Shown piece by piece: positions 14,549-56,081 of a stretch of DNA of 64,000 nucleotides. The stretch spans positions 248,001-312,000 of the forward strand of contig NC_015672.1 of the NCBI RefSeq assembly GCF_000218625.1. The letters are read 5' to 3'. This stretch comes from Flexistipes sinusarabici DSM 4947 (lineage in GTDB: Bacteria; Chrysiogenota; Deferribacteres; Deferribacterales; Flexistipitaceae). The notes below the pieces were generated by a model. The model was not told where the DNA came from. It was given only the letters and a program-made list of their open reading frames with translations, and searched no databases. The translations under genes were made by a program, and so were the position numbers. How positions within the stretch are numbered: the first letter of the stretch is position 1; each line of letters starts with the position of its first letter.

Positions 14549-16102
14549 TTATTTTATTACGAGATCACTAAAATATGGGAAATTCATTACATTTACAATA
14601 GGTTTTATCTGCAGATTGTCTTTTCCTGCCCATGATAAGTGCTGCCAATGCAGCGGTACATATGCTGCATCATTATAAACAATACGGGCTGCTTCTTTTA
14701 ACAGCTTGGCACGTTTTTTTGTGTCTGTTTCACTTTGGGAAGCAAGTATAAACTTGTCGACCTTTGGATTACAGTAATTGCCGCTGTTATATTGTCCGTA
14801 ACCTGTCTCTTTGCTCGGACACATAAGAAGAAATTCAAAATAATTTGCCGAATCCTCAGTATCAGGGTGCCAGCCTATCATCTGCATATCAGCCACCTGC
14901 TTGTCAAATTCTGACCAATACTGGGCTTTTGGCATCGTTGTGAGATTGACTTTTATATTGATTTTACCAAGCATGGAAACAATTGCTTCTGCAATTTTTT
15001 CATCATTAACATATCTGTTATTCGGTGCAATCATACTCAGTTCGAACCCGTCTTCATAGCCGGCTTCTTTCATCAATTTCTTAGCTTTTTGAAGATCGTA
15101 CCTCGGTTTCAATTCCGGCACATGACCGAGAAAGCCTTCCGGGGACTGCTGACCTGCTGCAGTTGCTTTTCCTTTCATGAGTATTTTTGCAATGCCCGGG
15201 TTATTGATTGCATGTACAATTGCCTGGCGTACTTTTGTGTTCTTCAGTTCCTCTTTGCGCTCCTGATTCATCTGGAAAGTGATGATTCTACTGCCGGGCA
15301 TTGTTACAAGTTTGACACCTTTTGTTCTTTCTATTCTGGCATAATCCTGGGGAGGGACAGGCATGATAAAGTCTACATCCCCTGATAACAGTGCAGCTAC
15401 TCTTGTGGCATCCTTTTTGATAGGTGTTAAAACAATTTTATCCACATTGCCGGGGGATTTTTTATCCCAATAATAGCCGGTGGCTTCCAAAACCATCTTT
15501 ACTCCCTGCTCACGATATGTGACCTTGTACTTACCGGTTCCTGATTCATGGGAGTTTGCAAAAGATGCGCCCACTTTTACAATGGCATCCTTTGGTTTGC
15601 CGTTTTCATCCACCCCGGAATAAAAGTCTTTATCCATGGGAAAGATGTATGTAGCCATATTCAGCAACAACGGATAAGGTTTTTTGGTAACAATATCCAC
15701 CGTGTATTTGTCCACTACCTTTGCACCTTTAAACGGTTCAAAAAGACCTTTGAAATCAGGACTTCTTTTCAATCTGTCAAGTGTCCAGACCACATCTTCA
15801 GCGGTGAACTCGTTACCGCTGTGAAATTTCACTCCTTCTCTTAGGTAAAATCTCATTGTCGTATCGTTGAGTCTTTCCCACTTTTTTGCCAGTCTGGGCT
15901 CAAAGGTCATATCCTGAGTCCATCTGACAAGTGGATCAAAGACCATATGGGAATATTGAAGCATTCCTCCTGAAAGCTGGGAGTGCGGATCCAGAGAAAC
16001 GGGATCGGCATCCATGGCAAGCTCAAGTGTTTTGGCGTTTGCACTTAATGCAAATATGCCGGTGATGAAAAAAACTGATAAAAAGGTAAAAAGCTTCTTC
16101 AT
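14549..16102 (-). CDS. dppA: Peptide-binding protein, extracytoplasmic (SBP family 5)
   Basis: Periplasmic binding protein that captures the substrate for the DppBCDF importer. From the ATG at 16102 it is 517 residues and starts with a clean signal peptide (MKKLFTFLSVFFITGIFALSANA, cleaved after ~23). The start is supported by AGGAGG at the right distance; ten further upstream codons are in frame but dilute the signal peptide. LELAMDADPVSLDPH and EGVKFHSGNEFTAEDVVWTL are typical of family 5. Substrate is probably di- or oligopeptides, but nickel or other ligands are known in the family. A TTGACA hexamer at 16198-16203 on the minus strand may be its -35, though the matching -10 is poor. Confidence 0.92.
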   Translation of the reverse strand: MKKLFTFLSVFFITGIFALSANAKTLELAMDADPVSLDPHSQLSGGMLQYSHMVFDPLVRWTQDMTFEPRLAKKWERLNDTTMRFYLREGVKFHSGNEFTAEDVVWTLDRLKRSPDFKGLFEPFKGAKVVDKYTVDIVTKKPYPLLLNMATYIFPMDKDFYSGVDENGKPKDAIVKVGASFANSHESGTGKYKVTYREQGVKMVLEATGYYWDKKSPGNVDKIVLTPIKKDATRVAALLSGDVDFIMPVPPQDYARIERTKGVKLVTMPGSRIITFQMNQERKEELKNTKVRQAIVHAINNPGIAKILMKGKATAAGQQSPEGFLGHVPELKPRYDLQKAKKLMKEAGYEDGFELSMIAPNNRYVNDEKIAEAIVSMLGKINIKVNLTTMPKAQYWSEFDKQVADMQMIGWHPDTEDSANYFEFLLMCPSKETGYGQYNSGNYCNPKVDKFILASQSETDTKKRAKLLKEAARIVYNDAAYVPLHWQHLSWAGKDNLQIKPIVNVMNFPYFSDLVIK

Positions 16103-22661: not shown

Positions 22662-23351
22662 TCATATTAACTTTTTTCCCAACTTTTCCTCAAGATATTT
22701 TTCAGAAAAATCTATTTTAACAGAGAAATTCTTAATAAATTCTTTCATAGCTTTTAAATTCAAATAGTAACTGTCATGTTTATCAATTACCTTATAATGA
22801 GCCTGTTTATTTAAAATTTTTTCAAAGGCATCTACTATTTCAAAAATGGTGTATCTATAGGGGTTAGCAAAATCGACAACCTGCCGCGGTGGCATTTTAT
22901 AAATAAATTTTGTTACAAGCAATTTGACATCATTAACTTCTATAACATATCTAAAACCATCTTTGTAAATGAAAAACGACTCTTCGTTGATTATTTTATG
23001 GTGGAGAAAATTCAACAGGGTGTTGTGCTCTTTAAAAATGTTGCCTATGAGCTGGGGCAGTCTAATGATGTAATAATTCTCCGATTTTGCTCTTATTATA
23101 TTTTCCATATTCTTTTTGTGGAGATAGTACTCATTTAAAGGGTAATCTTTTGCAGATAAAGCACAGCTGCTAAAATATACAAATTTTTTATTGTTTGATA
23201 GTTTAAGGTTTTTTTTTAGTAAATTTTCTTCTCGAATAAACTCATTTTTATCTGTGCACTTAGAATTGGCTACGCCACTTGCAAAAATTAGTACATCTTT
23301 ACTATCTTCATGTGTGAAAGCCTTTGCAATCTGTCCCGAGCCTATTATCAT
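22662..23351 (-). CDS. NAD(P)-dependent sugar epimerase/dehydratase-like protein
   Basis: A 229-residue extended-SDR-like protein. It starts almost directly with a nucleotide-binding glycine motif (MIIGSGQIAKAF), has VYFSSCALSA in the place of the catalytic Ser/Thr strand and YYLHKK as the Y-x3-K pair. It is shorter than typical epimerases (~300), lacking part of the C-terminal substrate domain. It is on the opposite strand from its neighbours, and its upstream region is interrupted ten bases before the ATG by a hairpin-rich element, so its native promoter may have been displaced. Substrate not assigned. Confidence 0.65.
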   Translation of the reverse strand: MIIGSGQIAKAFTHEDSKDVLIFASGVANSKCTDKNEFIREENLLKKNLKLSNNKKFVYFSSCALSAKDYPLNEYYLHKKNMENIIRAKSENYYIIRLPQLIGNIFKEHNTLLNFLHHKIINEESFFIYKDGFRYVIEVNDVKLLVTKFIYKMPPRQVVDFANPYRYTIFEIVDAFEKILNKQAHYKVIDKHDSYYLNLKAMKEFIKNFSVKIDFSEKYLEEKLGKKLI

Positions 23352-23361
23352 GATATTAAAC

Positions 23362-23578
23362 TCCGTTACTCAAGTTTCGCACTTCGCTATGTTATCGCGA
23401 CCGAGCACTTAAGGGGTTAAGTGCCCGGGTGGCAATCTCAAAAAAATATAAAAGGAGAGATTGCTTCGTCGTTGCCACTCCCTGCCCTGTTAAATGCCGC
23501 AGGCAATCAGCGAAGCTGATATTTAACAGGGTAAACAAAGACGTGCAATAAGTGCAAGTGCGAAACTTGAATCCGTTA
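23362..23578. mobile_element. MITE-like structured element with target duplication
   Basis: A ~203-bp non-coding element. Perfect 15-bp terminal inverted repeats: tcaagtttcgcactt (23370-23384) and aagtgcgaaacttga (23556-23570). It is flanked by a 7-bp direct repeat tccgtta (23362-23368 and 23572-23578), as left by transposition. Inside are three strong stems: gcacttaa/ttaagtgc with a gggg loop (23405-23424); gcaatctc/gagattgc (23432-23464); and ccctgttaaat/atttaacaggg (23485-23531) enclosing a second stem atcagc-gaa-gctgat. No reading frame of note. It sits ten bases upstream of one gene and ~80 bases before the next. This is consistent with a non-autonomous transposable element; a structured RNA is the alternative. 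Confidence 0.75.
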
Positions 23579-23655: not shown

Positions 23656-24435
23656 ATGAGCGAGGAAATTACAGGAATTGTACTAACGTATAATGGTGAG
23701 AAGTATCTTGATCCGTGTCTGAACTCTTTAAGAGCCTGCGTGGAAGAGCTTGTTATAGTTGATTCAGGCAGTGGGGATAGGACATTGGAAATAGCTGAAA
23801 AATATTCTGAAAATGTTATTCATCATAATTTTGAGAATTATGGCAAACAATGCATATATGCCATTGGGCAGGCGTCCAATCGCTGGATTTTTATTTTGGA
23901 CCAGGATGAAATTTTAGAAAATAAACTAATCAGCGAAATCAATGCTCTGAAAAAATCGGGGTTTGCTCATGACGCCTATTCTATTAGAAGGAGGAATTTT
24001 CTTTTTAATAAAGAGATAAAACATGGAGGATGGGGAAATGATTTTGTTATAAGATTATTTGATAGAAATAAAGCTTTTCCAACGGATAACAACTTTTCTG
24101 TAGTTAAGACTGAAGGAAATGTAAAAAGGTTAAAAAATAGAATAATTCATTACCCATGTGATTCCATAGATAAATATTTTGCCAAGATGCATAGTTATGC
24201 TAGTATTTCTGCTAAGGAAATGTTGGGAAAAAACAGAGAGTTCCGGTTGTATAATCTATTGTTCAATCCTTTATATAGAGCTTTTAAAAAATATGTTTTA
24301 CAAAAAGGTTTTCTTGACGGTATGTATGGGGTTATTCTGGCTGTTATCTCGTACTATTTTGTGTTTCTTAAATATCTCAAGCTTTGGGAGATTACTAATA
24401 TTAATCATGAAAACAAAAATAATGGTGATATATGA
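23656..24435 (+). CDS. Glycosyltransferase family 2 (WaaE/KdtX-like)
   Basis: Inverting GT-A enzyme, 259 residues from the ATG at 23656, chosen because MSEEITGIVLTYNGE is the family N terminus and ATAAGGG precedes it; the frame extends 22 codons further upstream into AT-rich DNA without family character. LVIVDSGSGDRT and ILDQDE (nucleotide-sugar and metal site) are visible. Overall pattern resembles WaaE-type beta-1,4-glucosyltransferases of LPS inner core. The stop overlaps rfbA. Confidence 0.8.
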   Translation: MSEEITGIVLTYNGEKYLDPCLNSLRACVEELVIVDSGSGDRTLEIAEKYSENVIHHNFENYGKQCIYAIGQASNRWIFILDQDEILENKLISEINALKKSGFAHDAYSIRRRNFLFNKEIKHGGWGNDFVIRLFDRNKAFPTDNNFSVVKTEGNVKRLKNRIIHYPCDSIDKYFAKMHSYASISAKEMLGKNREFRLYNLLFNPLYRAFKKYVLQKGFLDGMYGVILAVISYYFVFLKYLKLWEITNINHENKNNGDI

Positions 24436-53687: not shown

Positions 53688-56081
53688 TTATACTCCCGGA
53701 AATTCAGAGTTTATATCTTTAATGACATATCTATCTGCGACATTCTTGGGTCCGGATATACGCTCGATCTTAACGGCAGCTATTTTGAATTCCGGCTCTT
53801 TTGAGCCTTTATCCACTGCGTCATTGCAGACAAAATTTATCATTTCGCTAATACGCTGATCAAACCAGGGGACAAAAAGTATACCAGGCATCGAGTTTTC
53901 GACTATTACTGCAGGAAGAATGCTTGTGCCGCGTCTGCTTGTAATTTTTATCATATCTCCGCTGGTAATATTGTATTTTTTTGCATCGTCCGGATGGATT
54001 TCAACGTATGCGTTGGGATGTGCTCTTGCTAATTCAGGCACTCTCATTGTCATTGTACCTGTATGCCACTGTTCAATTACTCGTCCTGTAGTCAAATAGA
54101 AAGGATAGGCTGCAGAAGGAGTTTCAGCAGGTCCGGCATACGGTCTGAGGAAAATATTGGCTTTGCCTTCACCTTTTTTATCCATATAGAAAAAAATTTT
54201 TTCATCCGAAGGGATATCCTTGTTAAACAATTTTTTGAATCCTTCGTGATTGAACATCGGGTCCATTCCACGCACATATCTTTTATATGTGCCGGGATGA
54301 TCAATGGAAGGGCAGGGCCACTGAAGGCCGGCAGGTTCTTTTTTCAGTCTGTCATATTTTGCCCCCCACAGAGTATGGTCTGTATCTTTGGTTACAGTGA
54401 TGTATTCTGTCCATGCTTTTTCATTTGCAGCCATTGAATCATCATCGTTCCACGGGATAAGCCTTTCCAGCCCCATCCTTTTCGCCAGCTGGGCTGCAAT
54501 CCACACATCAGGTTTTGCCTCACCGGGAGGGTTTACACATTTTTCCGTTAATTGGCTTCTCCGTTCGGAACATCCGTATACCCCGCCCTTTTCATAAATG
54601 AAAGCTGCAGGCAGGACTACGTCGGCAAGCTGGGTTGTCCTTGTGGGAAAAATATCCAGAACAACTAAGAAAGAGTCTTTCATGCCTTTTAAATATTTAT
54701 TTAGATTTGGAAGTGACTGGGCAGGATTTGTGGTGGATGTCAGCATTCCTTTGATCGGTTTATCCGGGTTGTTCTCTCCGCCTAAATTGTCAAACATCTT
54801 AATTGTATGAAAGCCCGGCTTCGGATCTATCGTACCTTCTGGTATTTTCCATGCTTTTTCCACGTAGCTGCGCCACATGTCACTAGCTACAGGCTTTGTA
54901 CCCGGCAGCAAATGACACAGTGAACCTGTTTCCCTAACACCGCCGCATGCATTAGGCTGACCTGTTAAAGAAAATGGATCCGCTCCCGGTTTTGCTATGT
55001 TGCCTGTTAACAGATGTAGATTATGCATAAGATTGTTTGCCCACACACCTCTGGTTCTCTGATTCAGCCCCATTGTCCACATTGTATAAGTTGCACCGCT
55101 GTTTGCGAACCACTCGGCAGCTTTCCTTATGTCTTCTGCAGGGCAGCGGGTCAATTTTTCCACTTTTTCCGGAGTGAATTGATCGACAAAGTCAGCATAT
55201 TTCTTAAAATCGTAGGTGTTCTTTCCGTCGGTAATTCTGGCATTATTTTTTACAAAATCTTCATTGTACCAGTTGTTTTTTATAATTTCCCTGGCCATGC
55301 TGTGAAATACGGCTAAATCTGTTCCCGGGTCCACCGGCAGCCACAAATCGGCAATTTTAGCCGTGTTTGTCTTTCTCGGTTCACACACGATAATTTTTAC
55401 ATCGGGGTTGTTTAGCTTATGTCTCATAACACGCCGGAATATAATAGGGTGACATTCACTGGTGTTGGATCCCACAAGAAAGATACATTTAGATTTTTCT
55501 ATATCGGCATAACTCCCCACAGGCTCATCGGAGCCGAATGTTGAAACATATCCGCCGACCGCACTAGCCATACAAAGCCTTGGATTCCCTTCAACCATGT
55601 TACTTCTGAATCCGCCTTTCCAGAGCTTGTTAAACGTATAGCTTTCTTCTGTCGTACACTGACCGGAGCCGTAATAAGCCACTGCATCTTTGCCGTATTT
55701 GTTTTGTAAATATTTAAATTTATCCGCAACATAATCCAGGGCTTTGTCCCAGCTTACCTTTTCAAAGTTGCCGTTTTTTTGTCTGATCATCGGATATTTA
55801 AGTCTGTCAGGATGATACATCACTTTATATGCCAAAAACCCTTTAACGCACAGAAAACCGAAGTTTGTTTTTGCATCCGGATTGCCTTTTATTGCTACCG
55901 CCTTGCCGTTTTTTACACCAACATAAACGCCACATCCTGTGCCGCAGAATCTGCATGCACCTTTCACCCATTTATCCACATTTCCCTGAGCGTTGGCTTT
56001 TTGGGGAAAATTTATTCCCACTGAAGCAGCAGTAGCCGCTGCAGCACTTAACTTAATAAAATTACGTCTGCTTACATTCAT
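53688..56081 (-). CDS. napA: Periplasmic nitrate reductase catalytic subunit
   Basis: Molybdenum bis-MGD enzyme that reduces nitrate to nitrite in the periplasm. The 797-residue precursor has a Tat signal (SRRNFIK, then an alanine-rich stretch to ~31), a [4Fe-4S] site C43-x2-C46-x3-C50-x27-C78, the molybdenum ligand C170 in NPRLCMASAV followed by FGSDEP, and a C-terminal MGD-binding domain (LTTGRVIEQWHTGTMT; HPDDAKKY). AGGAGG precedes the ATG. No napB diheme subunit and no napC are in the window, so electrons probably come through NapH/NapG and the tetraheme lipoprotein. Confidence 0.94.
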   Translation of the reverse strand: MNVSRRNFIKLSAAAATAASVGINFPQKANAQGNVDKWVKGACRFCGTGCGVYVGVKNGKAVAIKGNPDAKTNFGFLCVKGFLAYKVMYHPDRLKYPMIRQKNGNFEKVSWDKALDYVADKFKYLQNKYGKDAVAYYGSGQCTTEESYTFNKLWKGGFRSNMVEGNPRLCMASAVGGYVSTFGSDEPVGSYADIEKSKCIFLVGSNTSECHPIIFRRVMRHKLNNPDVKIIVCEPRKTNTAKIADLWLPVDPGTDLAVFHSMAREIIKNNWYNEDFVKNNARITDGKNTYDFKKYADFVDQFTPEKVEKLTRCPAEDIRKAAEWFANSGATYTMWTMGLNQRTRGVWANNLMHNLHLLTGNIAKPGADPFSLTGQPNACGGVRETGSLCHLLPGTKPVASDMWRSYVEKAWKIPEGTIDPKPGFHTIKMFDNLGGENNPDKPIKGMLTSTTNPAQSLPNLNKYLKGMKDSFLVVLDIFPTRTTQLADVVLPAAFIYEKGGVYGCSERRSQLTEKCVNPPGEAKPDVWIAAQLAKRMGLERLIPWNDDDSMAANEKAWTEYITVTKDTDHTLWGAKYDRLKKEPAGLQWPCPSIDHPGTYKRYVRGMDPMFNHEGFKKLFNKDIPSDEKIFFYMDKKGEGKANIFLRPYAGPAETPSAAYPFYLTTGRVIEQWHTGTMTMRVPELARAHPNAYVEIHPDDAKKYNITSGDMIKITSRRGTSILPAVIVENSMPGILFVPWFDQRISEMINFVCNDAVDKGSKEPEFKIAAVKIERISGPKNVADRYVIKDINSEFPGV

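Follow-up and report, generated by a model that had tools for sequence, protein, structure and literature searches.

The 203-bp element lying between two divergent genes in the window (the whole 64,000-nucleotide stretch of the Flexistipes sinusarabici DSM 4947 chromosome that was analysed) is a real transposable element. Its best explanation is very probably a MITE with the ends of the ISPepr1 subgroup of the IS4 family, in which palindromic modules occupy slots and are probably exchanged by short-patch recombination. Flexistipes is a heat-loving bacterium, and three genomes of the genus were searched: the window's own (G000), a finished circular chromosome in a single contig of 2,526,590 bp; that of a congener (G002), a draft in 30 contigs; and a third one (G001).

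The element consists of the terminal inverted repeats (TIRs) plus one extra base per end (C...A), is non-coding, and contains no transposase. The features of the locus are the following.

22662–23351, minus strand: flanking ORF with weak likeness to RmlD/NAD-dependent epimerases; starts 10 bp away from the duplication
23362–23368, no strand: left target site duplication, TCCGTTA; the cognate IS is likewise flanked by 7-bp duplications
23369–23571, no strand: whole element, 203 bp, C + TIR ... TIR + A; the family orientation is the minus strand
23370–23384, plus strand: left TIR, TCAAGTTTCGCACTT; outer bases the same as in the Denitrovibrio IS
23401–23428, no strand: hairpin slot 2, CCGAGCACTTAAGGGGTTAAGTGCCCGG; defined by the copy alignment, compensatory changes, and swaps at shared sites
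23432–23464, no strand: central stem, GCAATCTC / GAGATTGC, with an A-rich loop of 17 nt
23481–23535, minus strand: module M1 in slot 1, a 55-bp Y-shaped palindrome with a long stem and the small hairpins ATCAGCttcGCTGAT and GCCtgcGGC
23556–23570, minus strand: right TIR, AAGTGCGAAACTTGA
23572–23578, no strand: right target site duplication, TCCGTTA
23656–24435, plus strand: family 2 glycosyltransferase; likely start 23656, longest-frame start 23590

The perfect 15-bp TIRs (15/15 matching positions) and the 7-bp duplication reported in an earlier note on this DNA are both present at the ends it gave. Its three internal stems hold in part: the 8-bp central stem (arms 23432–23439/23457–23464) and the 11-bp stem (23485–23495/23521–23531), which encloses two small hairpins, are as described, but the first stem, in slot 2 (23401–23412/23417–23428), is 12 bp with 11 paired positions, not 8 bp. 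The dense pairing is beyond chance. The fold energy of the element is 8.5 standard deviations below that of dinucleotide shuffles (z = -8.5) whether it is folded as RNA or as DNA, and 0/200 shuffles fold as stably.

The insertion lies ten bases before a start codon, as the same note had proposed (the minus-strand ORF has its ATG at 23351), and the duplication does include part of the ribosome-binding sequence: CTCC at 23361–23364, GGAG in the sense of the gene, overlaps it. An intact copy of GGAG still adjoins this ORF. At the corresponding site of G002 the element is absent and about 50 bp of unrelated sequence stand instead. The expectation of an empty site in a relative is thus borne out cleanly for other copies (see below), but not for the window's own, whose site in G002 is rearranged nearby. 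We also observed in G002 another kind of repeat, about 234 bp long, directly before the start of the same glycosyltransferase (L147:1490–1730; C2, about 180490–180730). Because this repeat differs from the window element, the region upstream of the glycosyltransferase carries an unrelated insertion in each species.

The 217-bp query gave 54 alignment pieces in G000, 45 in G002, and 31 in G001, the last mostly the internal M1 module alone; G000 and G002 each carry dozens of complete or partial copies of the element. A mismatch-tolerant scan for the TIR found 30+32 sites in G000 and 45+55 in G002 (copy numbers throughout are those recovered by the searches run here). From these two genomes we assembled 77 TIR-bounded elements, which include a few decayed or spurious ones. 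Of the 77, taken over both genomes, 51 are flanked by a direct repeat of 6 bp or longer, against a mean of 3.9 and a maximum of 10 expected from randomly re-paired flanks, and the target consensus is AT-rich, about TTAWTAA. For twelve G000 copies, the two flanks were joined and compared with G002: three insertions (677378, 1178351, 1478559) have clean empty sites there with a single copy of the duplication, and a fourth (2240810) has a near-clean one with a small deletion. In the other direction, one G002 insertion is empty in G000 near 15222–15230, where the flanks overlap by the 9 bp of its duplication. Nearly all tested insertion junctions (60/63) fall outside long open frames. One copy spans the numbering origin of the chromosome (G000 C1:2526504–2526590 and 1–48), and the same insertion is present in G002 (L195).

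The element is therefore short and non-coding, with TIRs, multiple copies, target duplications, and empty sites, as is typical of MITEs. Transposition, which had been proposed from the inverted ends and the duplication, stands on the many copies with the same ends and different flanks that the genome-wide search recovered in G000 and G002, on their varied AT-rich duplications, on empty sites in both directions, and on an IS that shares these ends and also makes 7-bp duplications. A chance origin of the inverted repeats, in an intergenic region of the usual sort, would account for the short arms and nothing beyond; the many copies, the empty sites, and the duplications already refute this reading, which has practically no probability left.

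That IS occurs in a Denitrovibrio genome (G012) in about 16 copies of 1526 bp, whose ends are CTCAAGTTTCGCA[CT]CT and whose 7-bp duplications are in register with those of the Flexistipes MITE. Its transposase has 466 amino acids, belongs to the IS4 family (NF049925, 335 bits for a cut-off of 250), and contains the YREK motif (YGQRWAVEVLFKDAK, Y343-GQ-R-WAV-E-VLFKDA-K). We found an IS with these ends only in the genus Denitrovibrio (G012, and a fragment in G013). The ISPepr1 subgroup is defined by ends YT-AA-YTT---A, AT-rich duplications of 7–8 bp, a size of 1500–1600 bp, and YREK (table 1 of PMC2266710), and the Denitrovibrio IS agrees with this row in ends, size, YREK, and duplication length. 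The left end of the Flexistipes element, CTCAAGTTTCGCA, fits every fixed position of YT-AA-YTT---A, and its right end, TTCAAG..., likewise fits; the base adjoining the TIR is T or A in many other Flexistipes copies. The family thus has the ends and the duplications of the subgroup, whereas the 1526-bp YREK element is in Denitrovibrio and not in the host. Neither an ISPepr1-type transposase nor an IS with such ends turned up in any of the three Flexistipes-genus genomes (G000–G002), although an autonomous partner in the same genome is usual, if not strictly required, for a MITE. Outside the TIR, the MITE and the Denitrovibrio IS have nothing obvious in common.

Since the source IS was not found in Flexistipes, the family looks like an orphan MITE with ISPepr1-type ends. 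Because the ends and the duplications are shared with the Denitrovibrio IS, we infer that an ISPepr1-type transposase probably moved it; this helper is drawn from the genome of another family because none was detected in the genus. Flexistipes has an IS4-like element of its own, with a 473-aa transposase (L167–L172; six near-identical full copies and one diverged partial copy), which we rejected as the source: its ends, about GTCACCCCATTTT, differ. A 1260-bp stretch of G000 (C1:1346346–1347605; L071:1347–2606) lies between perfect family TIRs and encloses a small gene pair, the second gene of which encodes a ParE-like toxin (Pfam PF05016); its flanking repeats are degenerate (5/7). It is possibly a cargo-bearing relative of the MITE.

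Inside the TIRs, the alignment of copies reveals a core, roughly 141 bp long, in which at least three slots take alternative palindromes. Slot 1 either contains M1 or is vacant; slot 2 is occupied by a hairpin of one of three types, with CCGCCCACTTAAGGCGTTAAGTGGGCGG or AACCCTGTTTCCACAGGGTT in other copies replacing the one present at this locus; and slot 3 is either vacant or filled by a longer palindromic stretch, of which there is a short and a long form. The same sub-terminal linkers are found with many combinations of modules, whose kinship we judged by sequence alone. The interior does not derive from an IS but is a fold-back core with slots for alternative palindromic modules.

Insertion sites common to G000 and G002 number 13; the modules differ at 8 of them and are of the same type at 5. 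Some of the differences may be assembly errors in the G002 draft, but the copies carry copy-specific arm markers and unique flanks. Where the modules differ, the arms are nearly identical. M1 differs at 53770, 158935, and 2406886 (the last also in slot 3), and 158935/L203 is the cleanest case, with elements identical except for M1 and its junction bases. The slot-2 hairpin differs at 1755050/L214 and 2166673/L183, several parts differ at 163834 and 2199174, and at 551045 the interior is inverted and the hairpin changed. In G000, the elements at C1:163834–164195 and 2199174–2199535 also have an additional palindromic repeat (GAGATTGCTTCGCTACGCTCGCAATGACGGACAAACGACGTCATTACGAGG...) nested within the core. 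The suggestion that the pairing goes beyond the needs of an ordinary MITE holds: the internal stems are real, separate modules, and their pairing is kept by compensatory changes.

Matches to M1 number 44, 25, and 60 across the three Flexistipes-genus genomes (25 in G001), with none in 43 other genomes of the order. Among about 85,000 species, its 26-base core was found elsewhere only in one Deferribacteraceae MAG (UBA1873). Judged from these searches, M1 is confined to the genus Flexistipes, its core in UBA1873 aside. It occurs by itself in unique sequence, in the MITE slot, and within another repeat (GATCCCTCGGCTTCG...GAGGGATGACA). There are also chimeras in which half a MITE and half of the other repeat meet at M1 (one at 2461516 of the finished G000 chromosome, one at L212). 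Within the MITE, M1 copies share a single junction, at which the bases replaced are the same (GCGA -> GTT...CAG). Among divergent copies of M1, both sides have changed in 12/24 pairs, giving 39 compensatory cells against 20.9 after shuffling and 3–14 after sliding; the 16 closest copies gave no covariation, which appeared only once the divergent ones were added. The slot-2 hairpin also has compensatory changes. Because of these paired changes in both, the fold of M1 and of slot 2 is maintained, which DNA-level processes could explain as well as RNA selection does.

The very stable fold, these compensatory changes, and the position of most junctions outside long open frames are what one would expect if the element were mainly a structured RNA (a terminator, a processing signal, or a small RNA), the stems being kept by selection on a transcript and mobility having only spread it. 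An Rfam search with E up to 1 returned no match, and arm-to-arm copying or repair of DNA can keep perfect palindromes and give the same pattern. Moreover, since a slot can take unrelated hairpins and is often vacant, no single RNA structure is conserved. We regard a primarily RNA function, such as the folded RNA envisaged in the earlier note, as quite unlikely.

A different question is whether M1 and the other hairpins reach the slots by homologous recombination or are themselves tiny mobile elements, inserted, for example, by a RAYT-like tyrosine transposase of the IS200/IS605 type. That M1 stands alone in unique sequence and within other repeat families, and is numerous in the genus with no match in the rest of the order, speaks for insertion, as does the presence of Y1 (IS200/IS605-type) transposase genes in G000 and G002, one of which (G002 C4:44541–45478; L309) lies a few hundred bases upstream of an M1 palindrome. 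Yet most Y1 loci have no M1 nearby, and G001 has no Y1 match despite its 25 matches to M1. The single junction within the MITE looks like one origin followed by conversion. The link between Y1 transposases and M1 is weak, and self-moving hairpins seem rather doubtful.

We return to the MITE with exchangeable modules. An ISPepr1-type transposase would bind the CTCAAGTTTCGCA ends and cut the element out, which would then be pasted into an AT-rich 7-bp target near TTAWTAA, duplicating it. For the module differences seen at shared sites we infer, as the simplest reading, that short-patch recombination between copies would exchange the hairpin modules after movement. Breaks at extruded hairpins, made for example by SbcCD, may speculatively start the exchange; the hairpins might be the exchanged part because the breaks would fall there. 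One might go further and suppose that palindromes at fixed slots are swapped time and again by a hairpin-targeted process (SbcCD-type cutting with repair templated by a second copy, or the action of a Y1 transposase on single strands), which also moves the genus-specific M1 three-way-junction module between unrelated repeat families. We put this forward as a tentative possibility, well short of even chances.

Mobile insertion cassettes, e.g., MIC231, offer one comparison: in the 1260-bp G000 relative the same TIRs enclose a ParE-like toxin gene, whereas the 203-bp element carries no gene. The term is used in PMC2266710. Like the ISPepr1 subgroup (PMC2266710), the family has outer ends YT-AA-YTT---A, 7-bp AT-rich duplications, and a cognate 1526-bp YREK IS, in Denitrovibrio; it differs in having no transposase, no IS-derived interior, and no source IS found in the genus. 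The BOX elements of Streptococcus (PMC3049150) are also small, folded, modular MITE-like repeats whose module content varies between strains at a given locus. However, BOX varies mainly in the number of boxB, while the Flexistipes element alternates unrelated palindromes at fixed slots and has clear target duplications and cognate IS ends. QMITE2 of Coxiella resembles it in size (about 190–200 bp), TIRs, 7–9 bp duplications, and a very stable fold, but has different ends, and slot exchange is not described for it in the parts of the review consulted (PMC10969869). M1 recalls the REPs associated with RAYT transposases (PMC3733652), being a short dispersed intergenic palindrome that also lies beside other repeats; unlike them, it is Y-shaped, has no GTAG/CGTC tag recognisable by eye, and has no steady link to a RAYT gene. 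A literature search, in which subscription papers were thinly covered, returned no published description of the Flexistipes MITE.

These findings tie an orphan MITE family to the enzyme that probably moves it, known from a different family of the same phylum. The palindrome swaps inside these small transposons form a natural record, in which the insertion and the arms are the same and the hairpin is different, and they make the origin and spread of bacterial palindromic repeats directly testable by comparing strains.
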